From: Hysterangium stoloniferum
Taxonomy: Eukaryota; Basidiomycota; Agaricomycetes; Hysterangiales; Hysterangiaceae
Reading direction: 5' to 3'
DNA: 64,000 nucleotides
NCBI GenBank assembly: GCA_015178975.1
Contig: WHVD01000069.1
Location: 372,001 to 436,000, forward strand
Positions 3,850 through 28,817 of this stretch are shown piece by piece. Position 1 is the stretch's first letter. Every line of letters begins with the position of its first letter. The position numbers and the translations under genes are program-made. The notes under the pieces were generated by a model. That model was not told the origin of the DNA, made no database searches, and worked only from the letters and a program-made list of their open reading frames with translations.

Positions 3850-4952
3850 GGTGTTGTTACAACTGTGTCACAGCCGTTCGGCCCTGAGGTTATTGCCACC
3901 TATTGACGATTCAATTATCACTCAAGTCACCACATCGGAAACCATCGCCCCCAATGCTGATATATGCTTTTGCGGTGATCAAACTCCGTTTATGCCCATG
4001 TCAAAATATACTCGTACTATCTGGTTAAACTTTTGATACGTCCCTTTTATTATGATGATCCACTCTATCCTACGTTTCACATATGTCTATATAGTTGTAA
4101 CCCTCGAACTATTTCCTTTTACCGTAATTCCACTCTCAGTTATCATCAGCCTCCGAACTAATCATAAACTTCCCATTCCTAGTCAAGCTTATTGTTAATA
4201 CCGTTTTCCACCCTTCTCCCCGTTAGTATTTTATAGATGCCTGATACTTGTATATGAACCCGCTGTAGTTGTAGTTACTAGGCAATCAGAATATCGACTC
4301 AGAATACCCTCTTACGCCTCTAGCAGTCTTGTACTAAGAATCCCCTCATCCGCCTTCGTGTGCGCTCGTCCACTTGTGATGTATTAGCCTTATTTTAATA
4401 CTATTTTCTGAAAAAGGAGTCCAATGCTCTATCAAAATGTGCAAATACTCAATTCACTGCAAGGTAAAATAATTTAAGTATTTGATATTAATCAGTGGCA
4501 GCCTAAATAGACTTAGAACCCCTGAAGTCAAGAGTTTACTTGAATATATGCACCCTACTTCGCAAAGAAGGTTTTGAGAGCTGCTTGTGCAAGCTTGTTC
4601 TTTTTCTGTAAAAACACTACTAAAATATGAATAACAATTCACTGATTCCGAAACTAGATTCAACTTCGATTCTAGCTAGTTTATACATATTTTATACTAT
4701 TTATCAAACAGTAAAAATATTTATAAACAGGTCAAAAGATTAGATATAGAATAAAACACTATTTGGCTAATATATGCTTTATTTACACTAACCTACAAGG
4801 TCTACTGTGATACTAACTTATCAGGATCTTAATGTAGTCTTAAGGATTCTGCAAGGATATTCTCAGTATTTGTTTATGTGAATATGCTTTACTGATTCAC
4901 AATAAATGAACAAAGGAACGGGATTATTTGCAATGTAATAAACAGTCAAATT

Positions 4953-5238
4953 ACTCAACTAGAGGTGACTGAAGTTTTAGACTACAAATAACAATGTAAA
5001 GAAAACTAATAATCGGTACTCAATTAAGAGATGACTATAGTATAAAGAATTAATACCAGAAACTCAACAAGAGGTGGCAGGGAATCCTGATTGGTCAGAA
5101 GAGTGACCAGGGGGTAGGATTATTGTCAGAAGCTCAACAAGAGGTGACAAAGGGATCCTGAGATAGCTTAGGTCAGCAGCTCAACTAGAGATGACTAAGT
5201 ATTTATATTTATTTGTCCAACAGCCCAACAAGGGGTGG
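4953..5238 (+). repeat. Six dispersed copies of a ~17-bp CTCAACAAGAGGTGAC motif
   Basis: Imperfect copies occur near 4953, 5019, 5061, 5131, 5180 and 5223, spaced about 40-70 bp apart. The core is CTCAAC(A/T)AGAG(G/A)TGAC, and the last copy reads CCCAACAAGGGGTGG. The spacing and conservation look like an old, diverged tandem array rather than a coding signal. Confidence 0.7.
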
Positions 5239-5692
5239 AATAAACTGCTTGCTGCAGTGGCACACTGATGTGGCTGATAAATTGTAGTAAAGATTGATTG
5301 ATTTTGATATTCAAGGCTGGAGCTGAGCTCCTTATATACATTTTGGTCTGAGACATTTTAGAAGATTCTAGAAGATTGAATGATGTCATTCTGGAAGGAA
5401 TGATGTCATTTAGAATTTTCTAGAATTTTCTAGAGCATAGTGGAAGGTTCTAACTACTTCTAAGACACTATAGAATATTCTTGGCATAATAGAACTTACT
5501 GGAATCTTATAGAATATTCTACAATATTCTATCTATTATTAGTATCTACTATCTACTGTTCCTTTGGAAACCACTGGAATGTTCCAGAGATTTCCGGTTT
5601 TTGTTGAAGTAGCATATATGATTATATAATGCTCTCACGCCTGTGCACGCGCATAACATCCTTCGCGTCTTGTGACTGTCACATGTTGTGAC

Positions 5693-5998
5693 AGTCGCGC
5701 GCCTGTGTGACCGTTGCGCGCCTGTGTGACCGTCGCACACCTCTGTGACCGTTGCGCGCCTGTGTGACCGTTACGCGCCTGTGTGACCGTTGCGCGCCTG
5801 TGTGACCGTTGCGCGCCTGTGTGACCGTTGCGCGCCTGTGTGACCGTTGCGCGCCTGTGTGACCGTTGCACGCCTGTGTGACCGTTGCGTGCCTGTGTGA
5901 CCATTGCGCGCCTCTGTGACCATTGCGCGCCTCTGTGACTGTTGCGTGCCTCTGTGACTGTTGCGCGCCTCTGTGACTGTTGCGCGCCTCTGTGACAA
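5693..5998. repeat. 19-bp GC-rich minisatellite, about 16 copies
   Basis: The unit is GCGCGCCTGTGTGACCGTT. Variants with CTCTGTGAC, GTGCCTCTG or CGCACACC cluster towards the ends, with the most uniform units in the middle. The unit length is not a multiple of three, so all frames stay open and give meaningless repetitive ORFs. It sits inside the 4375-6237 element. Confidence 0.9.
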
Positions 5999-6561
5999 CT
6001 GTCATTTGTTGTGATGGCTGTCACTCGTTGTAAGGAGTTTCCCGCGTGCCGTAGAAATTCAATATCTTGCTCAATTTATTAGATAAAAATACAAAATAAA
6101 TTGTATAAATTCAAGATAAATCAAACAAATATTGTACAATTTTATCATCGCAATATAATTACATTTGAATATTCGTTTTCACAATTTGTTAGGGGAAATT
6201 GTTTAAAAAATCAGAAAAAACCTATAAATACATAACACCACTCTCGGTCACTGACCCTTGGCCCGACACTCGACTTAACCTTTGGTCCCGATCGGTACCT
6301 CACCAAAAGGAACTTGTTAGGATTAGTCTTTGCCCACCCGAAATTTAAGGACACTCAACAGACATTTGTGAGGGTGCAGCACATAAGCTGAAGCCAAGTC
6401 CTTCCGATCGGTCCCTGTCGGCCAACTGACATCAGTCAGTTTTCAGTTCTTAACAGGTGTAGCTAGTTCCAGTATGGCAGCGACCTTCTCTTGGTGGGTT
6501 GAAAAACCAAGTCTAGACACCTTATGACCTAGTAATAGAATCGAGTTATACCCAATGTAGC

Positions 6562-7381
6562 TGTTAGGATACACACACAGGCCGGGTTTCCGGAGAAACC
6601 CGCGGGATATCCGGTAGGACTTGGCTTCAGCTTATAGGCTGCACCCTCGCTAGATCGTGTTGTCCAATTTCAAACGGACGGATGGGGATCCCGGGGAGTC
6701 CGGGCGGGGTTCGTGGGTCGTGGGTCATAGGTTGGGGGTCGTGGGTCATGAGTCGAGTTGGTTGAGAGAGATAGATGCGCTGGAGCCTGTGGGCTCTGAC
6801 TAGTGCGAGCGATGTGAATCGAGTAAGGTTTTAGAGCGGAAAATATATTTAGATTACTGGGGGGAATCTAAGCTAATTTTCTGACTGGATTGTATGTACA
6901 ACATCTGCCAGTTTATATAGACCGTGGAATGCATGACATACCAAATCCAGTAATAATCGAAACGAAACTAACAAAACATGAAACGGGAATAGTAAACACC
7001 AAATTGGTGTTAGGAATGGAACGGAATGGAGCGGAGTCCGAATCATGACAAAGCATAACCCATAACGGGAAACGGAGTGGGAGTGGAGTCCTAAATCGTG
7101 ACAGGTCATTTGACTAAAACGGGAATGGGGCTCGATTAGAGCAGTGACAGGATTCTAAGCAGGGACCGGTGACTGATGCGTGGGACGAAGACGGACATAG
7201 ACAGAGACGGAGTCCGGGGGAAGTCCGGTGACTGATATGTATCGTAATGAGGTCGAACGTAATGAGTCTTGACGTGACGGAGTCCGGGCGGGAAATCCTA
7301 TAAACAGACGATTGGTGCTTGTAGCGCATGGGGGCGTACGGGTTAGTGCCCGGAGTCCGGCGGGATTGTCCGGTCGTAACA
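6562..7381 (-). mobile_element. Gypsy-A LTR, left arm (3' LTR of the minus-strand half)
   Basis: On the minus strand it runs from TGTTACGACCGG to GTATCCTAACA, 820 bp. A purine tract AAAGGGAGGATAC (complement of 7382-7394) precedes it, as for a 3' LTR. It contains the TATATAAACTGG promoter-like box and the short GACCCACGAC-type direct repeats shared by all Gypsy-A LTRs in the window. Open frames inside it recur in every LTR copy and are not genes. Confidence 0.9.
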
Positions 7382-7442
7382 GTATCCTCCCTTTATGCCG
7401 AAGTCCCAAAGAGGCTCTAGACCTAGATAAGGTTCTTGTCGG

Positions 7443-8108
7443 CTACGCGCATGTGTCAAAAGTCATGTCCAAGGATTTTCCGAGGGATCTAAAGAAGTGA
7501 GACATGAACTCTGATCCTCTATCGGAAGTCACGTGGGACGGAACTCCGTGCTTGGAAAATACGTGGATAATGAAAAGTTCCGCTAACTGCACGGATGTAA
7601 TTGTATCATAAGTAGGGATGAATATACCTTGTTTTGAGAATCTGTCAACAACGACTAGAATAGCAGAAAAGCCTTCAGAATCCGGTAGGTGTTCAATGAA
7701 ATCCATAGAGATAGAATTCCACGGATGTTCCGGTACCGGGAGTTGTTTCAAAAGGCCATATGGCTTGTGTCGCTGAGATTTCGAGCGGGGACAAGTAGTG
7801 CAAGATTTACAATAGTGCTTAATGAATCCACGGAGTCCGGGCCAAGTATATTCTCTTCTTATTAATGATAGAGTTTTGTTGTACCCGAAATGTCCTGAGA
7901 GTGGATGATCATGTTTGTATTGTAGGATCCTGAGGCGGAGGCCGTCGGAGTCCGGTACATAGATACGATCGTCAAGTCTAATGAAACCATGTTGATCAAG
8001 AGACCACCGAGGTTGATCGGGGTCCACGGGATTGTCCAGATGAGCTTTAGTGACTGGGTCTAGCAGAATTGCCGATAGAATATCTTGATGTAACTTCTCG
8101 ATATCCAT
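7443..8108 (-). pseudogene. Gypsy-A integrase, truncated (minus half)
   Basis: The frame contains the H2C2 zinc-binding region (HDHPLSGHFGYNKT, then CKSCTTCPRSKSQRH) and part of the DDE core (SMDFIEHLPDSEGF, VVVDRFSKQG, VTSDRGSEFMS). It stops at KSLDMTFDTCA. From GACATGAC onward the sequence is not integrase but the element's 3' tail, leading straight into the purine tract and LTR. The last catalytic acidic residue, the C-terminal domain and the chromodomain are therefore deleted. The plus-strand arm at 12090-13325 has the identical truncation. Confidence 0.9.
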
Positions 8109-8345
8109 AATGATAATTCCACGGACAATGGGATTGACGAGGAAAGTTGCTCAGACCGATGCGGTAAGCTGTTGATTCGTGAAAATAGGTTTCAGGTTGT
8201 GCGGATTTACCGTTGCATAGTTGTTGCTCCCCTCTTTAGGATAGATGTCCCATCGTCTAGTTAAAGTGTCGGGTTTGCCGCCGAGATGGCCGGGTCGAAA
8301 ACGGATAATCATATTGAAGGCAGAGAGATATTCAGACCAGCGGGC

Positions 8346-10103
8346 CTACTGGCAGGTCAAAAGCTTTGTGGTAGAAAAGTATTCCAGGTTTTTGTGATCT
8401 GTTACAACGTCAATAGGAGCTCCTGAACCTTCCAAATAGTGTCGCCACGCTTTGAAAGCTGAAAAGATTGCCAGAAGTTCTTTATCATGAACATTGTAGT
8501 TGAGCTCTGCTCCGGTAAAAGTCTGGGACAGAAAAGCCACGGGGTGGACTTCTCCGTTGGAGTCCTGGATAGAAAGAATGGCTCCAAGTGCATAGTCGGA
8601 GGCGTCCATTTCAACAATGAGCGGGAAGTCCGGTTTCCAATGCGACAGAATAGGAGCTGTAGAAAAAGAATTTTTTAAAAGATTGAAAGCTTTTTGACAC
8701 TTATCATTAAAGGTCCACGGAGTACCCTTACGTGTAAGATGGGTAAGGGGTACCGCGATGTCGGAATATCCACGGATAAAACGTCTGTAAAAATTGGCAA
8801 AGCCGAGGAAAGATTGTATATCTTTAACTTTTTGGGGTTCGGGCCAATCTTTGATGACTTGCACTTTAGTTTCATCCATGCGGAGTCCATCGGGTCCCAT
8901 CATGAAACCTAGGTATTCCACGGAGTCCGTGTCAAAAGTACATTTTTTACCATTTGCGAATAAACCATGTTGTCTGAGCCTCCGGAGAACTTCACGGACT
9001 TGTTTGTCGTGTTCCGCGGGATTCTCGGAGTAGATAAGAATGTCGTCCAAGTAAACAATGACGCATACATCGAGCATGTCGGAGAAAATGTCGTTGATAA
9101 AACACTGAAAAACAGACGGAGCATTGGTGAGTCCAAAAGGGATGACCAACCACTCGAAGGCCCCATAACGGGTTCTAAAAGTGGTTTTCCATTCATCACC
9201 TGTGCCAATCCAGACCAAATGATAAGCATGCTTGAGATCTATTTTGGTGTAAATCCGGGCATTCCGCGGAGCATCGAGCAGGTCAGATATAAGTGGGAGT
9301 GGATATTTATCCTTTTTGGTGACAGCATTGAGTCCTCTAAAATCAACACATAGTCGAAGGGATCCATCCTTTTTCCTGACAAACAGAACAGGTGCTCCAA
9401 AAGGAGACTTTGAGGGTCGAATAAACCCTATGGACAAATGTTCATCCAGGAAATCACGGATTGCGGATAGCTCCGTGGACGAAAGCAGGTAAATATGTCC
9501 TAGGGGTGGCTGGGCGCCATCTTCAAGATCGATTTTTAAGTTGTATTCTCTGTGAGGTGGAAGCCGGTCAGCTTTTCGCTTGCTAAAAACATCCGCAAAG
9601 TCATGATATTTCTCCGGGACGCCTTCTAGGTCAGCGGCTTGCTCAGAATCAGATACCGGGGTTGAAAAACGTCCAGTTGCTTCATCAATTTTTAAGTTGA
9701 TAGTGAACGCCTGGGACCCATCCATTTTTGAAGCCCTAATAAAAGCTGCAGCATTAATCAGAGAAATGGACGGAGGTGCCGTGGGTTCCGGGGAAGCTGT
9801 AGGTGCCGTAGGGATCACAGGAGTCCTCGAGACTGCAGGTGCCGGGAAGGCCATGGGTGCCGTGGAGGCCGAGACAGGCGCAGTTTCCTCGGTCGCCACG
9901 GGAGTCCGGAATGTTATACTGTTAGCTATCCAGTCAATCAACAGATTGTAGCGGGTAAGCCAGTTATGTCCTAGGACTACCGAGCAACTTGAGTCTAACT
10001 GGGTCACATAGAAAGTGACCAATTGAGATGTTCCACAAGGGAAATTGATGGGTAAATCACAAGCTTGGGTAACAACCGAATTACTTGTGCCATCGAAGAG
10101 GCT
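8346..10103 (-). pseudogene. Gypsy-A protease end, reverse transcriptase and RNase H (minus half)
   Basis: The frame starts inside the aspartic protease domain (SLFDGTSNSVVTQACD), lacking the catalytic DSG that Gypsy-C has upstream. RT follows with RLCVDFRGLNAVTKKDKYPL, VIPFGLTNAPSVFQ and VIVYLDDILIYSE (intact YLDD). RNase H then has VEMDASDYALGAILS and ELLAIFSAFKAWRHYLEG. It ends at a TAG after TTKLLTCQ. The plus-strand arm reads TTKLLTRRQ through the same point, so this stop arose by C-to-T changes. The protease end abuts plus-strand integrase sequence at about 10,100, an inversion junction. Confidence 0.9.
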
Positions 10104-10506
10104 TGCTGAAAAATATTTAGGTCCGTTTGAAATTATCACACAAGTAGGTTCAGTCTCTTGGACTCTACGGCTTCTGGATAGCATGCGTGCGGTACACCCG
10201 GTATTTCATGTTTCTATGCTAGAACCTTGTACTGCTAACACTATCCCGGATCGCGTGCAATCTCCGCCTCCTCCTGTCGTCATTGACGGAGAACCCGAGT
10301 TTGAAATCTCACAGATTTTAGATTCAAAAATAGACAAGCATCGACGCACTTGTAAACTGCTTTACTTGGTCAAGTGGGCGGGTTACGAGGGCACCGATGA
10401 AGAGACTTCATGGATTTTGGCCACGGAACTCAGTAATGCCACGGAAATCGTTATTGACTTTCATACAGCTTACCCACTCAAACCTGGACCATTATCGTCT
10501 CTCTGA
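10097..10506 (+). pseudogene. Gypsy-A integrase C-terminal domain and chromodomain
   Basis: The frame begins at RLAEKYLGPFEII, the start of the chromovirus integrase C-terminal domain, followed by VHPVFHVSMLEP. It ends in a chromodomain with ILDSKIDKHRR, YLVKWAGY and DEETSWI (residues roughly 95-140). The stop at 10504-10506 is a natural polyprotein end. This is exactly the part missing from both integrase copies in the outer arms. Its left edge is the inversion junction. To its right lies ~200 bp without coding and then the antisense zinc-cluster gene. Confidence 0.9.
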
Positions 10507-10711
10507 CCGCACTCCACGGACCCCGTGTTACGTTTGGACTCATTTTCATTTTTCCCTGTCGCCCTATGTCTCTCTTTGCTTTTACAGGTTCTGACATGTC
10601 TTGTCAAGTCTTTAAGCGGACTCCCCGCAAACTTTGGCTTTGACTTTTATTTTTTATGTTTTTCTTTCACGCTTTACTTTTATGATTCAAAATTATTTTA
10701 TATTACTTTTC

Positions 10712-11693
10712 TCAGTCTACATTTATGGGACTGTGTTTTTTCCCCGCCTCCTCAGCTACCTCTCCAGGAAGCTCCGCGACCTCCACGGCAACCCCCTCCT
10801 CATCCGACCCGGCATCCTCGGAACTCCCGATCTGTGGCTCTTCATAGACATAGCCGCCATACTCCGCCAGGAACTTCCAAAACTCCTCGCGGAGTCCGGA
10901 CAGCTCCTTTGCCACCACAATTTGGACCTTGTTGCTCTTCCGGAGCAACTCATTTTGGGCCTCGATGCCCTCGGCGATCCGTCCAAGGACCTCGTCCAAC
11001 CCGGACAACCTGTCTGTCCCACTTATGTCTCGCGTCCCGGACCCCGTGGCCTGCTCGTGAACAAGTGAGCACCTCACCTTGAGGTGCGCGCATTGGTAAC
11101 ATCCCGGACCCCGGCCAGACTTTCGGTTACATTCTGTGTTCCGGTCGTTGCAACCGGAACACTGCGGCTCGTTCTGCATCGGAAGACGAACTGGCGCTGC
11201 CTTCCTTGCCTTCTGTTGATATGGTCAGTTCCCGCGGGTATCCCACGGACAAGAGGCATACCTTTTGGGGGCTCTCTGGCTCCCCCTCGGACTCCGACTC
11301 TACCTCTGTCGCTTTGCACTGAAAATCACAAGTCAGTAAAGTTCGATAAGTGAAATTGGGACTTACTTTTCCCACAACAATGGCGGCCCTCTCCGCGGCC
11401 AACCGGGCTTTCTCTGCAGCCACCCGGGCATTCTCCGCAGCCACTCGCACAGCCTCCTCCGCCTCACATTCCCTCTCCTTCACGGCCTCTTCCTCCGCGG
11501 CCAATGCTTCCTGGTACTCTCTGTCCAGGGCCTCCTCGGCCTCCCTCGCCTCTCTCTCTGCTGCTTCATGAAGCCGGCGCTGCTCTTCTCGCCGCACCAA
11601 CAATTGGGCCGCGCTCCAAGGTCCCCAATACGGAGTGCCCGTGGAGGGCCCTGCTGTAGGCATTGGCTTGCGTGGTGTTGGTTTTGGTCCCAT
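10712..11693 (-). CDS. Spliced Zn2Cys6 zinc-cluster/coiled-coil protein, antisense within Gypsy-A
   Basis: Three exons (11367-11693, 11262-11318, 10712-11212) joined by introns of 48 nt (GTAAGT...TTTCAG) and 49 nt (GTATGC...CAACAG) give a 294-residue protein. The N-terminus (MGPKPTPRKPMPTAG) leads into a long Glu/Ala/Arg-rich coiled coil (residues ~40-105). After an acidic linker comes CSGCNDRNTEC...CYQC...C with spacing CX2CX6CX9CX2CX6C, the fungal binuclear zinc cluster. A second helical region follows, then an acidic tail. It may bind DNA; no target can be read. It lies between an integrase/chromodomain end and the element's purine tract and LTR, in the opposite direction, so it seems to be cargo or an antisense ORF of Gypsy-A. 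Similar hypothetical proteins could exist elsewhere as host genes. Confidence 0.75.
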
Positions 11694-11743
11694 AGTGATG
11701 AAGATGGGGGTAATAAAGAAGAAGAAATTTCTATTTTTTCAAA

Positions 11744-11753
11744 TTTTTATATA
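11744..11753 (-). promoter_or_regulatory. TATA box of the antisense zinc-cluster gene
   Basis: On the minus strand the sequence TATATAAAAA lies about 50 bp upstream of the ATG at 11693, with a purine-rich leader between. This placement supports an independent antisense transcript and does not require read-through from an LTR. Confidence 0.5.
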
Positions 11754-11794
11754 GGCTCGCCGCGTTTGAACCTTACCTTCCAGATCACATGACT

Positions 11795-12088
11795 CTTTGA
11801 CACATACGTGTAACCGACATGACTTTTGACACATGCGCGTAGCCGACAAGAACCTTATCTAGGTCTAGAGCCTTTTTGGGACTTCGGCATAAAGGGAGGA
11901 TACTGTTACGACCGGACAATCCCGCCAGACTCCGGGCACTAACCCGTACGCCCCCACGCACTACAAGCACCAATCGTCTGTTTATAGGATTTCCCGCCTG
12001 GACTCCGTCACGTCAAGACTCGTTACGTTCGACCTCATTACGATACATATCAGTCACCGGACTTCCCCCAGCCTGTGTGTGTATCCTA
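11795..12088 (+). mobile_element. Gypsy-A 3' tail, purine tract and internally deleted LTR
   Basis: A ~29-bp motif (ATGACT...CACAT..G..TA.CCGAC) is duplicated at 11788-11846, followed by the same tail and AAAGGGAGGATAC tract found before the other LTRs. The LTR starts at 11904 (TGTTACGACCGG) and runs to about 12067. It then jumps to its last ~20 bp (GCCTGTGTGTGTATCCTA, ending 12088), so about 640 bp of LTR middle including the TATA box is missing. It is fused directly to RT-tail sequence. Confidence 0.85.
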
Positions 12089-13325
12089 TTTAAAAAATTC
12101 TTTTTCTACAGCTCCTATTCTGTCGCATTGGAAACCGGACTTCCCGCTCATTGTTGAAATGGACGCCTCCAACTATGCACTTGGAGCCATTCTTTCTATC
12201 CAGGACTCCGACGGAGAAGTCCACCCCGTGGCTTTTCTGTCCCAGACTTTTACCGGAGCAGAGCTCAACTACGACGTTCATGATAAAGAACTTCTGGCAA
12301 TCTTTTCAGCTTTCAAAGCGTGGCGACACTATTTGGAAGGTTCAGGAGCTCCTATTGATGTTGTAACAGATCACAAAAACCTGGAATACTTTTCTACCAC
12401 AAAACTTTTGACCCGCCGGCAGGCCCACTGGTCTGAATATCTCTCTGCCTTCAACATGATTATCCGTTTTCGACCTGGCCGTCTTGGCGGCAAACCCGAC
12501 GCTTTAACTAGACGATGGGACGTCTATCCTAAAGAGGGGAGCAACAACTATGCAATGGTAAATCCGCACAACCTGAAACCTATTTTCATGAATCAACAGC
12601 TTACTGCATCGGTCCGAGCAACTTTCCTCGTCAATCCCATTGTCCGTGGAATTATCATTATGGATATCGAGAAGTTACATCAAGATATTCTATCGGCAAT
12701 TCCGCTAGACCCAGTCACTAAAGCTCATCTGGACAATCCCGTGGACCCTGATCAACCTCGGTGGTCTCTTGATCAACATGGTTTCATTAGACTTGACGAT
12801 CGTATCTATGTACCGGACTCCGACGGCCTCCGCCTCAGGATCCTACAATACAAACATGATCATCCACTCTCAGGACATTTCGGGTACAACAAAACTCTAT
12901 CATTAATAAGAAGAGAATATACTTGGCCCGGACTCTGTGGATTCATTAAGCACTATTGTAAATCTTGCACTACTTGTCCCCGCTCGAAATCTCAGCGACA
13001 CAAGCCATACGGCCTTTTGAAACAACTCCCGGTACCGGAACATCCGTGGAATTCTATCTCTATGGATTTCATTGAACACCTACCGGATTCCAAAGGCTTT
13101 TCTGCTATTCTAGTCGTTGTTGACAGATTCTCAAAACAAGGTATATTCATCCCTACTTATGATACAATTACATCCGTGCAGTTAGCGGAACTTTTCATTA
13201 TCCACGTATTTTCCAAGCACGGAGTTCCGTCCCACGTGACTTCCGATAGAGGATCAGAGTTCATGTCTCACTTCTTTAGATCCCTCGGAAAATCCTTGGA
13301 CATGACTTTTGACACATGCGCGTAG
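12089..13325 (+). pseudogene. Gypsy-A RT tail, RNase H and truncated integrase (plus half)
   Basis: It is the inverted copy of 7443-8680. The RT tail LKNSFSTAPILSHWKPDF leads to RNase H (VEMDASNYALGAILS) and through the [19 protein letters not shown] linker, which is interrupted by a stop in the minus arm. The integrase H2C2 region and partial core follow, to the same GSEFMSHFFRSLGKSLDM end. A few amino-acid substitutions separate the arms. The frame is open for its full 416-codon length, but RT, protease and the integrase C-terminus are absent. Confidence 0.9.
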
Positions 13326-13386
13326 CCGACAAGAACCTTATCTAGGTCTAGAGCCTCTTTGGGACTTCGGCATAAAGGGAGGATAC

Positions 13387-14248
13387 TGTTACGACCGGAC
13401 AATCCCGCCGGACTCCGGGCACTAACCCGTACGCCCCCATGCGCTACAAGCACCAATCGTCTGTTTATAGGATTTCCCGCCCGGACTCCGTCACGTCAAG
13501 ACTCATTACGTTCGACCTCATTACGATACATATCAGTCACCGGACTTCCCCCGGACTCCGTCTCTGTCTATGTCCGTCTTCGTCCCACGCATCAGTCACC
13601 GGTCCCTGCTTAGAATCCTGTCACTGCTCTAATCGAGCCCCATTCCCGTTTTAGTCAAATGACCTGTCACGATTTAGGACTCCGCTCCTGCTCCGTTTCC
13701 CGTTATGGGTTATGCTTTGTCATGATTCGGACTCCGCTCCATTCCGTTCCATTCCTAACACCAATTTGGTGTTTACTATTCCCGTTTCATGTTTTGTTAG
13801 TTTCGTTTCGATTATTACTGGATTTGGTATGTCATGCATTCCACGGTCTATATAAACTGGCAGATGTTGTACATACAATCCAGTCAGAAAATTAGCTTAG
13901 ATTCCCCCCAGTAATCTAAATATATTTTCCGCTCTAAAACCTTACTCGATTCACATCGCTCGCACTAGTCAGAGCCCACAGGCTCCAGCGCATCTATCTC
14001 TCTCAACCAACTTGACTCATGACCCACGACCCCCGACCTATGACCCACGACCCCCAACCTATGACCCACGACCTCCGACTTACGACCTACGACCCACGAA
14101 CCCCGCCCGGACTCCCCGGGATCCCCATCTGTCCGTTTGAAATTGGACAACACGATCTAGCGAGGGCGCAGCCTATAAGCTGAAGCCAAGTCCTACCGGA
14201 TATCCCGCGGGTTTCTCCGGAAACCCGGCCTGTGTGTGTATCCTAACA
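13387..14248 (+). mobile_element. Gypsy-A LTR, right arm (3' LTR of the plus-strand half)
   Basis: It runs TGTTACGACC to GTATCCTAACA, 862 bp, preceded by the purine tract. It is about 42 bp longer than the left-arm LTR, mainly through extra GACCCACGAC-type direct repeats at 14015-14100. Flank GTAGC (14249-14253) pairs with 6557-6561. Confidence 0.9.
13849..13856 (+). promoter_or_regulatory. TATA box in Gypsy-A LTR
   Basis: TATATAAA lies 463 bp into the LTR and is conserved in the minus-strand copies, for example near 7375-370 bp inward from each LTR start. It is the likely core promoter of Gypsy-A. In the composite, both outer LTR promoters drive transcription outward into Gypsy-B. Confidence 0.5.
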
Positions 14249-14253
14249 GTAGC

Positions 14254-15205
14254 ATTTTTTGGGCAAGAGAGTGATTCCCACTGCAATTATGGCTTGTAAA
14301 ACTTGATCTAGATGCTCTAAATGATTGTCCCATGTCTTAGAAAAGATCACGATGTTGTCAATATAAACGAGACAAAAAATCCATAGGTAAGGTGCAAGTA
14401 CAGTTTGCATAACTCTCTGGAATATAGAGGGTCCATTATGAAGTCCAAAGGGCATTCGCCTGAATTGCCACAGTCCTCGATGGGATCTGAAAGTGGTCTT
14501 TGGTTTATCTTCTTCTAACATTTCGAGTTGGGTAAAGCCGGCTAATGCGTCAAAGGAAGATAGGATGTTGGACCCTGAAAGCGCTTGCATGATTTCGGAC
14601 TGGCGTGGCAATGGGAATTCGTCGGGAACTGTGAAGCTATTCAATTTTCTATAGTCAATCACCACTCTCGGTTTCCCATTATGATAGACGACGAAGGCTG
14701 GCACCCCCCAAGGACTTTTGGACGGTTCAATTACTCCCTGTTGAAACCAAGTATCCATCTGCTCATCGATGACCTTCCTATTGGCTGGGGAAGTTGGAAA
14801 CATTGACATCGAAATAGGTTGCATGCCTTCTTTCAATGGGACATTAATTTTGACATCTACTTGTCCTAAACGCCCATCTACTCCAAAGGCTTGAACATTC
14901 TTAGTCAGTACTGACTCTAGGCGGGAGGAGACGTCAGCAGGAATGTCAGGTCCTAAATTGACCAACTTATGTAGGTCCTCCACTCGGAATGTTTCCGTTG
15001 TGGAGACTTCTGACATTTTAGGGCCTGCTGGGTTGAAATTGTCTGCGAGTTCCCATTCTGGAGGCTGTCCGGAAGGTTGAGGATTAAGGACACGCTCCTC
15101 TTCTATTCTCAATAGGCTCTCCACAAGGTGAGCGATCTTGGTTGCCGTTGACTGCATCGATGCTCTCTCAGTTGAAAATCTAGGCATCTGGGCCCATTCG
15201 TTCAC
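14254..15205 (-). pseudogene. Gypsy-B reverse transcriptase, N-terminal two thirds
   Basis: RT motifs read PLKEGMQPISMSMFP, GVIEPSKSPWGVPAFVV, PRVVIDYRKLNSFTVPDEFP, FDALAGFTQLE, FRRMPFGLHNGPSIFQR and LVYIDNIVIFSK. The catalytic block is YIDN, where YxDD is required, so the enzyme would be inactive. The frame stops at the GTAGC duplication of the Gypsy-A composite and resumes in the same frame at 6556-6461 with the expected ..LGHKVSRLG.. block. Confidence 0.9.
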
Positions 15206-15232
15206 ATTGTGAATTAATCCAACAGTTTCCCC

Positions 15233-24856: not shown

Positions 24857-26090
24857 TGTGAAGAGTGGTAGAAGTTCTGACCATTCTATATATGAAGAAA
24901 TGAGTAGAATGGGAAGAAGGATGATTCGAGTGGAGGCCTCAACTGCTATAGTTTGAGGTCTAAAGTGTTAGATAGCTCAGATAATGCTACCTATGTGGTA
25001 GCTGACACGTGTTAGGATACACACACAGGCCGGGTTTCCAGAGAAACCCGCGGGATATCCAGTAGGACTTGGCTTCAGCTTATAGGCTGCGCCCTCGCTA
25101 GATCGTGTTGTCCAATTTCAAACGGACGGACGGGGATCCCGGGGAGTCCGGGCAGGGTTCGTGGGTCGTAGGTCGTAAGTCGAGGGTCGTGGGTCATGAG
25201 TCGAGTTGAGTTGGTTGAGAGAGATAGATGCGCCGGAGCCCGTGGGCTCTGACTAGTGCGAGCGATGTGAATCGAGTAAGGTTTTAGAGCGGAAAATATT
25301 ATTAGATTACTGGGGGGAATCTAAGCTAATTTTCTGACTGGATTGTATGTACAACATCTGCCAGTTTATATAGACCGTGGAATGCATGACATACCAAATC
25401 CAGTAATAACGAAATGAAAACTAACAAAACATGAAACGGGAATAGTAAACACCAAATTGGTGTTAGGAACGGAATGGAACGGAGCGGAGTCCGAATCGTG
25501 ACAAAGCATAACCCATAATGGGAAACGGAGCGGGAGTGGAGTCCTAAATCGTGACAGGTCATTTGACTAAAACGGGAACGGGGCTCGATTAGAGTGGTGA
25601 CGGGATTCTAAGCGGGGACCGGTGACTGATGCGTGGGACGAAGACGGACATAGACAGAGACGGAGTCCGGGGGAAGTCCGGTGACTGATATGTATCGTAA
25701 TGAGGTCGAACGTAACGAGTCTTGACATAATGGAGTCTGGGCGGGAAATCCTATAAACAGACGATTGGTGCTTGTAGCGCATGGGGGCGTACAGGTTAGT
25801 GCCCGGAGTCCGGCGGGATTGTCCGGTCGTAACAACACATTACCCTGATCACTGCTCACTGTAGACCTAGTTTATGTCTTACGAGTGGTGGTGCTTGGGT
25901 AAAAGTGTGTCTGAGTTTCATTTGGTGCTGAGTGCACCCACAAGTATACACAAAGCTTTGAACTAATGAAATAATGCAATATTTGAAGAATATAAAGAAT
26001 AGAAAAATATGAATAAAATGTGTAAAATATAAATAAAATAAAAGGAGTGTTTTACCATAATGAAACTGTGGTAAAAGCATACTCCTCACA
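24857..26090 (-). mobile_element. Gypsy-B-type solo LTR, interrupted by a Gypsy-A solo LTR
   Basis: The ends TGTGAAGAGTGGTAG and CATACTCCTCACA are flanked by CTCAT (24852-24856) and CTTAT (26091-26095), a likely target duplication with one transition. The middle is interrupted by 25010-25834. Confidence 0.75.
25010..25834 (-). mobile_element. Gypsy-A solo LTR
   Basis: An 825-bp LTR, TGTTAGGATACAC to CCGGTCGTAACA on the plus strand. Flanks are ACACG (25005-25009) and ACACA (25835-25839), a duplication with one G-to-A change. No internal sequence remains, as expected after LTR-LTR recombination. Confidence 0.9.
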
Positions 26091-27997: not shown

Positions 27998-28817
27998 TGT
28001 TAGGATACACACACAGGGCGGGTTTCCGGAGAAACCCGCGGAATATCCGGTAGGACTTGGCTTCAGCTTATAGGCTGCGCCCTCGCTAGATCGTGTTGTC
28101 CAATTTCAGACAGGCGGACGGGAATCCCGGGGAGTCCAGGCGGGGGTTCGTGGGTCGTGAGTCGTAGGTCGTGAGTCGAGAGTCGTGAATCGAGATAGTC
28201 GAGAGAGATAGATGCGCCGGAGCCCGTGGGCTCCGACTAGTGCGAGCGGTCTGATAAGAGTAGGGTTTTAGAGAGGAAAATGTATTAGATTACTGGGGGG
28301 AATCTAAGCTAATTTTCTGACTGGATTGTATGTACAACATCTGCCAGTTTATATAGACCGTGGAATGCATGACATACCGAATCCAGTAATAATGAGACGA
28401 AACAAGCAAAACATAAAACGGGAATAGTAAACACCAAATTGGTGTTAGGAACGGGACGGAACGGAGCGGAGTCCGAATCGTGACAAAGCATAACCCATAA
28501 CGGGAAACGGAGCGGGAGCGGAGTCCTAAATCGTGACAGGTCATTTGACTAAAACGGGAACGGGGCTCGATTAGAGCAGTGACGGGATTCTAAGCGGGGA
28601 CCGGTGACTGATGTGTGGGACGAAGACGGACATAGACAGAGACGGGGTCCGGGGGAAGTCCGGTGACTGATATGTGTCTTAATGAGGTCGAACGTAACGA
28701 GTCTTGACGTAACGGAGTCCGGGCGGGAAATCCTATAAACAGACGATTGGTGCTTGTAGCGCGTGGGGGCGTACGAGTTAGTGCCCGGAGTCCGGCGGGA
28801 TTTGTCCGGTCGTAACA
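27998..28817 (-). mobile_element. Gypsy-A solo LTR with AAAAC duplication
   Basis: An 820-bp LTR flanked by perfect AAAAC (27993-27997 and 28818-28822). It lies inside the Myb-like accessory frame, which continues on its far side. Confidence 0.95.

Follow-up and report, generated by a model that had tools for sequence, protein, structure and literature searches.

Inverted terminal repeats are known among retroelements from DIRS-type elements, which rely on a tyrosine recombinase and are not known to duplicate their target site. Composite long terminal repeat (LTR) elements that are flanked by 5-bp duplications, have all LTRs oriented alike and are attributed to template switching have been described by Sabot and Schulman (2007; PMC1950507), and a yeast study reports inverted insertions, mostly about 5–34 bp long, that are templated by fold-back where chromosomes break (PMC11724301). 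Here we describe a unit from the basidiomycete Hysterangium stoloniferum that shares some features with each of these systems. It lies in a 64,000-nucleotide stretch of contig WHVD01000069.1 (positions 372,001 to 436,000; hereafter the window, whose numbering is used throughout), is made up of three fragments of a single Ty3/Gypsy chromodomain element, bears a U5 LTR end at both outer edges, and interrupts a second retrotransposon, Gypsy-B. The unit is most likely the product of one integration of rearranged extrachromosomal complementary DNA (cDNA) of this element with two free U5 ends.

The unit resembles DIRS-type elements in having inverted terminal repeats within a retroelement, whereas it carries an rve integrase and is flanked by a 5-bp target-site duplication, GTAGC. 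The Pfam scan of seven frames, in which rve was present, revealed no tyrosine recombinase, although no search was aimed at that enzyme. The complex of Sabot and Schulman is comparable in that a single integration was inferred from 5-bp duplications, the outer LTRs are similar, and more than one reverse-transcription template was used; it differs in its internal third LTR, two complete cores and single LTR orientation (PMC1950507). The unit likewise is flanked by a duplication and has outer LTRs that resemble each other closely, a similarity probably restored in part by later conversion, while its outer LTRs are inverted, in U5–U5 arrangement, and its only inner LTR is a remnant at 11904–12088. 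The yeast insertions share inverted duplication by fold-back copying but are very short and found at breaks (PMC11724301), whereas the unit has exact LTR termini and a 5-bp duplication. In PMC12789967 the term “U5-U5” is used of RNA packaging contacts, and a search of the open-licence PubMed Central literature found no described U5–U5 insertion, which is weak evidence of absence.

Boundaries, empty site and internal architecture

From LTR to LTR, the unit occupies 6562–14248, with GTAGC directly outside each edge (6557–6561 and 14249–14253, window plus strand). LTRs of the family start with TGTTACGACC and end with CCTAACA, and the unit shows the CCTAACA end at its left and right outer edges alike; since the left LTR reads minus and the right LTR plus, U5 lies at both outer edges. 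The original prediction is borne out with respect to the GTAGC copies, the LTR orientations and the two U5 termini. Its description of 6557..14253 as an inverted-LTR composite is right as to the composite itself, whereas the LTR-to-LTR limits are those given above and the interior is a set of three rearranged pieces, not a simple palindrome. A given 5-mer is matched by chance about once in 1000, and here the match sits at the exact final LTR base on both sides.

The family is large, with 1207 matches to a 22-letter U5-end pattern (one mismatch allowed) in the 111-Mb assembly of 554 contigs to which all genome searches refer. Among 22 other family LTRs with both ends inside one fetched locus, the 5-mers at the two edges are identical in 11; of the remaining 11, seven have their apparent own element interior on one side and four show unlike 5-mers. 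The unit shares with ordinary copies of its Ty3/Gypsy chromodomain family a 5-bp duplication directly beside the LTR termini, together with the TGTTA...TAACA LTR, the polypurine-like tract and the reverse transcriptase (RT)–RNase H–integrase–chromodomain order. Ordinary copies differ in having two direct LTRs, so that one outer end is U3 and the other U5; the unit has no U3 outer end, and no sequence from upstream of its segment-1 breakpoint was recognised.

The insertion site is preserved empty in paralogs. In 28 of 29 other Gypsy-B loci (L066–L094) the sequences flanking the unit abut, with one GTAGC or a slightly altered form of it, when left and right flanks are compared one by one and not as joined sequence. 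About 20 nucleotides are missing at the site in L091, and L094 carries another interruption about 30 bp further left. To the left of the unit Gypsy-B extends over about 6455–6556 only, because another insertion sits just before it.

The features of the unit and its edges are as follows.

6557–6561, unstranded: target-site duplication GTAGC, left; single copy or variant at the empty site of the paralogs
6562–7381, minus: left LTR, U5 outward, 820 bp
7382–7469, minus: polypurine-like tract and 3′ untranslated end of segment 1; homologous to 11816–12069 and 13299–13552
7459–7469, minus: deletion junction from integrase to 3′ untranslated region (UTR), left arm; about 8 bp overlap by BLAST ends
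7462–10102, minus: remainder of segment 1, comprising integrase without its C-terminal part, RNase H, RT and an upstream stretch (Pfam Integrase_H2C2, rve, RVT_1, RT_RNaseH)
10090–10102, unstranded: junction 1, lettered as in segment 1; the integrase side agrees at 11 of 13
10103–12069, plus: body of segment 2, comprising integrase C-terminus (SH3), chromodomain, 3′ region, polypurine-like tract and the first 166 nucleotides of an LTR (from 11904) (Pfam SH3_Tf2-1, Chromo; homology to L010–L020)
12070–12088, plus: tail of segment 2, the final U5 nucleotides minus ACA, joined to the U3 stretch
12088–12089, unstranded: junction 2, from the U5 end minus 3 nucleotides to RNase H; unique at three or fewer mismatches
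12089–13306, plus: segment 3, RNase H and an integrase that lacks its C-terminal part; inverted sibling of 7462–8679
13299–13309, plus: integrase-to-3′ UTR deletion junction, right arm, shared with the left arm
13387–14248, plus: right LTR, U5 outward, 862 bp
14249–14253, unstranded: target-site duplication GTAGC, right
14243–15232, minus: Gypsy-B reverse transcriptase frame, cut by the unit, right flank

Segment 1 (minus, 6562–10102) starts at a U5 end, passes through the shortened integrase, RNase H and RT, and breaks off upstream of RT. Segment 2 (plus, 10103–12088) begins with the integrase C-terminus, continues with the chromodomain and the 3′ region, and ends in a truncated LTR that stops 3 nucleotides short of its U5 end. 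Segment 3 (plus, 12089–14248) starts in RNase H, passes through the shortened integrase and a full LTR to the other U5 end, and is the inverted sibling of part of segment 1; the two inverted regions are referred to as the arms. RVT_1, RT_RNaseH, Integrase_H2C2, rve, SH3_Tf2-1 and Chromo are all present, with the integrase split among the pieces and the rve match in each arm extending to profile position 97 of 102. The stretch upstream of RT in segment 1 is labelled as the protease side by position alone, with no Pfam match there. Nothing from the region upstream of where segment 1 breaks off was recognised within the unit, so that gag, the primer-binding site and the 5′ LTR seem to be absent.

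The letters at junction 1 are CCATCGAAGAGGC, and family homology stops at 10101–10102 in eight of ten loci other than the unit. All 13 letters are matched in four of nine copies of the segment-1 side, 12 in two, 11 in two and 10 in one, while the integrase side matches 11 of the 13 in all 11 copies. A candidate junction near 10175 was dropped, as 10090–10260 is mostly ordinary family sequence and the true junction lies at 10102. Within the LTR remnant of segment 2, the skip from U3 to U5 was probably made at a CCCGG match that today reads CCCAG. At three or fewer mismatches, junctions 1 and 2 have no second occurrence in the assembly, and the integrase-to-3′ UTR deletion junction has no match besides the two arms.

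Kinship and CpG decay of the pieces

The arms pair by BLAST (12089–14249 against 8679–6561) at 96.6% identity over 2161 columns, with 32 mismatches and five gap openings; MAFFT aligns them with 33 substitutions and a single gap of 42 bases. Many differences within the family are CpG changes from C to T or from G to A, and non-CpG sites were therefore counted apart. At these sites, the arms differ from one another at 3 of 1045 positions in RNase H/integrase and at 0 of 649 in the LTR, as against at least 8 of 926 between the arms and 16 other copies of the former and at least 10 of 661 between the arms and 33 other copies of the latter. Segment 2 differs from both arms at one of 208 non-CpG positions, while six other copies show 3 to 8 such differences from the arms and 4 to 9 from segment 2. 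Furthermore, position 12716 is C in both arms and T in all 100 other places listed, out of 121 matching places including the arms. These counts support the reading that the three pieces are siblings. On a wider scale, the RNase H/integrase piece has 3051 relatives at E ≤0.001, and the species-named ones among the best 120 belong to Pisolithus, Antrodiella, Meripilus and Pleurotus, all Agaricomycetes.

CpG decay offers a measure of timing, provided that rates are similar along the element; the tests draw on a modest number of copies, some of them incomplete. The inner arm (12089–13092) contains 60 CpG sites, with 4 decays shared and 21 discordant; five sites are decayed in both arms, against 4.3 in simulation (P 0.43). 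This inner region of about 1 kb thus looks as if it decayed independently, so the arms were probably separated when fresh and probably stood apart before most CpG decay. In the outer arm (13093–14249, counterpart about 6561–7675), 16 decays are shared and 6 discordant, and 17 sites are decayed in both arms, against 5.3 simulated (P <0.0001, 20,000 draws). The two patterns differ (Fisher p about 1e-4), and we read the outer parts, including most of the LTRs, as having been homogenised later by gene conversion between the inverted arms. The decayed CpG fraction is 0.18 in the rest of segment 1, 0.26 in segment 2 and 0.23–0.27 in the arms, whereas other copies range from 0 to 0.73 across the four pieces; the similar fraction in all pieces fits one arrival time. 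LTR identity was withdrawn as proof of a recent origin, because the outer part, with its 16 shared and 6 discordant decays, was likely converted.

Origin of the unit

The proposal of a single cDNA integration is carried by the exact ends with their duplication, the empty site in paralogs, the sibling arms, which seem to have separated when fresh, and the near-complete U5 end of segment 2. Exact ends flanked by a 5-bp duplication point to the simultaneous use of two U5 ends by integrase. The stop of segment 2, 3 nucleotides before U5, corresponds to a natural cDNA end, which chromosomal DNA does not offer, and fits either a jump at the end of a template or the joining of a trimmed end. The strand of segment 1 is oriented as a minus-strand cDNA growing from U5 would be, and the retention of segment-1-strand letters at junction 1 fits that strand as the primer. 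The original prediction had integrase inserting a palindromic cDNA, for example from template switching or end fusion; the integration of one DNA with two U5 ends, from either source, is supported by the evidence on ends, duplication, empty site, arms and the end of segment 2, and the palindrome gives way to the three-piece structure.

The composite cDNA was probably built by template switching. A minus strand started at the U5 end would have run to the point upstream of the RT region and then switched, at the imperfect 13-nucleotide match, onto a minus-strand cDNA. Copying would then have gone on in the plus sense through the integrase C-terminus, chromodomain and U3, skipped within the LTR at CCCGG, and reached 3 nucleotides short of the U5 end of its template. 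The next jump would have led to RNase H of a copy bearing the integrase deletion, perhaps the strand's own first part folded back, and copying would have ended by run-out at a complete U5 end. Once made double-stranded, the composite could have been joined by integrase, through its two U5 ends, to positions 5 bp apart in Gypsy-B, and gene conversion between the inverted arms would afterwards have evened the outer part and with it most of the LTRs. A narrower version may also be considered, which we advance tentatively, as a possibility somewhat short of probable: a minus-strand cDNA folded back and copied to its own 5′ end would give a linear U5–U5 DNA that integrated in vivo with the normal 5-bp duplication, a rare natural route leaving large inverted repeats. 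If the single integration is correct, the locus would be a natural case in which integrase employs a pair of U5 ends together, and in which an inverted composite made by reverse transcription nevertheless inserts cleanly. The kilobase-scale inverted repeats that such units leave behind seem conversion-prone here, and outward U5 pairs with a common 5-mer provide a simple genome-wide test for the units.

Such a test was applied to about 152 distinct ends of the 1207, made up of 100 of the 1207 places and 100 of 227 from a stricter pattern; 112 places were paired by script and the remaining stricter-pattern places by eye. Seven outward pairs within 20 kb among the paired ends, together with one pair on contig 18, make eight, none of which shares a 5-mer; further U5–U5 cases may exist among the other U5 ends. 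The contig 18 pair, at C18:165225(−) and C18:174362(+) (L095 and L096), was rejected as a second unit, with GGGTG and CATAT as flanks and LTRs about 90–91% like the arms. These unrelated outward LTRs, 9.1 kb apart, are the sole other carriers of an AT/TA LTR variant common to the arms, which is probably recurrent at a TA-rich spot.

Several points weigh against a single cDNA integration. The order of events is reconstructed from a single copy, and no second U5–U5 unit was found among the U5 ends paired. The U5 and U3 termini both read TAACA, which with the G of the duplication makes a 6-bp TAACAG microhomology through which repair could yield the exact right end. Junction 2 has no overlap, the CCCGG match presumes one later CpG change, and a folded-back strand is a hairpin that needs further copying to become a two-ended duplex. 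Without conversion, the outer-arm decay pattern would mean a later separation of the arms. Lastly, the deletion common to both arms was withdrawn as proof of templating, since the difference-free tract 13093–13683 spans it and conversion could have spread it.

The alternative that survives best, though we consider it unlikely, is a concerted integration with two donors, in which two sibling cDNAs each lend one U5 end and the broken inner ends are sealed by end joining, a third cDNA fragment (segment 2) serving as filler. Two identical donor ends are used by integrase in vitro, and such an event would likewise yield U5–U5 ends with a 5-bp duplication; the lack of overlap at junction 2 and the trimming of its U5 end by 3 nucleotides would also be accommodated. 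Against this, both donors would need the same integrase deletion, seen in no other copy of the assembly at three or fewer mismatches, unless conversion spread it later, and junction 1 shows an 11/13 match with the letters of the primer strand retained.

Chromosomal repair through the TAACAG microhomology is a serious rival to a composite cDNA, and one that we rate as less likely again. It starts from an ordinary minus-strand element with direct LTRs, whose 5′ half is swapped during repair for inverted copies of its 3′ half, the exchange stopping at the old U3 terminus by way of the TAACAG common to the U5 copy and to the U3 terminus plus the duplication base. Later gene conversion between the arms, which appears to have occurred, also speaks for repair. 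The 4 shared against 21 discordant inner CpG decays would require repair soon after insertion, and the switch must strike the final LTR base out of thousands; the stop of segment 2 before its U5 end also counts against repair, no outer U3 end remains in the unit, and none of the sequence normally found upstream of the segment-1 breakpoint was recognised there. The original prediction had held that ordinary recombination would have to convert the outer end to the exact base; that argument still stands, weakened by the 6-bp microhomology. Two independent insertions at one site are disfavoured by the sibling arms and their private deletion.

An assembly chimera or a fold-back read artefact is very improbable: inverted repeats are prone to such errors, but the arms differ at 33 aligned positions with 27 CpG sites discordant, the target-site duplication is exact, and the unit lies about 57 kb inside the nearer end of a 443-kb contig. 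Scarcely credible is a family of such units moving by their U5 ends, in line with the further suggestion of the original prediction that the structure now moves as a terminal-inverted-repeat unit: both ends are of the type used by the family integrase, but the integrase C-terminal part is missing from both arms, the internal junctions are unique at three or fewer mismatches instead of recurring in several copies with different duplications, none of the eight other outward pairs within 20 kb among the U5 ends paired shares a 5-mer, and a single-copy unit gives no sign of such movement.

Other insertions and contig edges

Gypsy-B is also broken by an LTR-type insertion at about 3855–6455, with GGTGT before TGTTACAACTG at 3855 and GGTGT after ...TTAACA at 6455; the two GGTGT copies are likely the 5-bp duplication of this neighbouring insertion. 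It contains a tandem array at 5630–6047 with a 19-bp step, detected as 15 overlapping registers of a 152-nucleotide reference. Of 40 listed places of the family 3′ region, nine are no further than 1.5 kb from a contig start. None of L015, L016, L010, L017 and L020 contains three TTAGGG in a row, so that for 3′ regions near contig starts (e.g., L015 and L016) assembly breaks in young copies are likely. Two more LTRs of the family lie in the window at 25010–25834 and 27998–28817, with likely 5-bp duplications AAAAC (exact) and ACACG/ACACA (one change), respectively.

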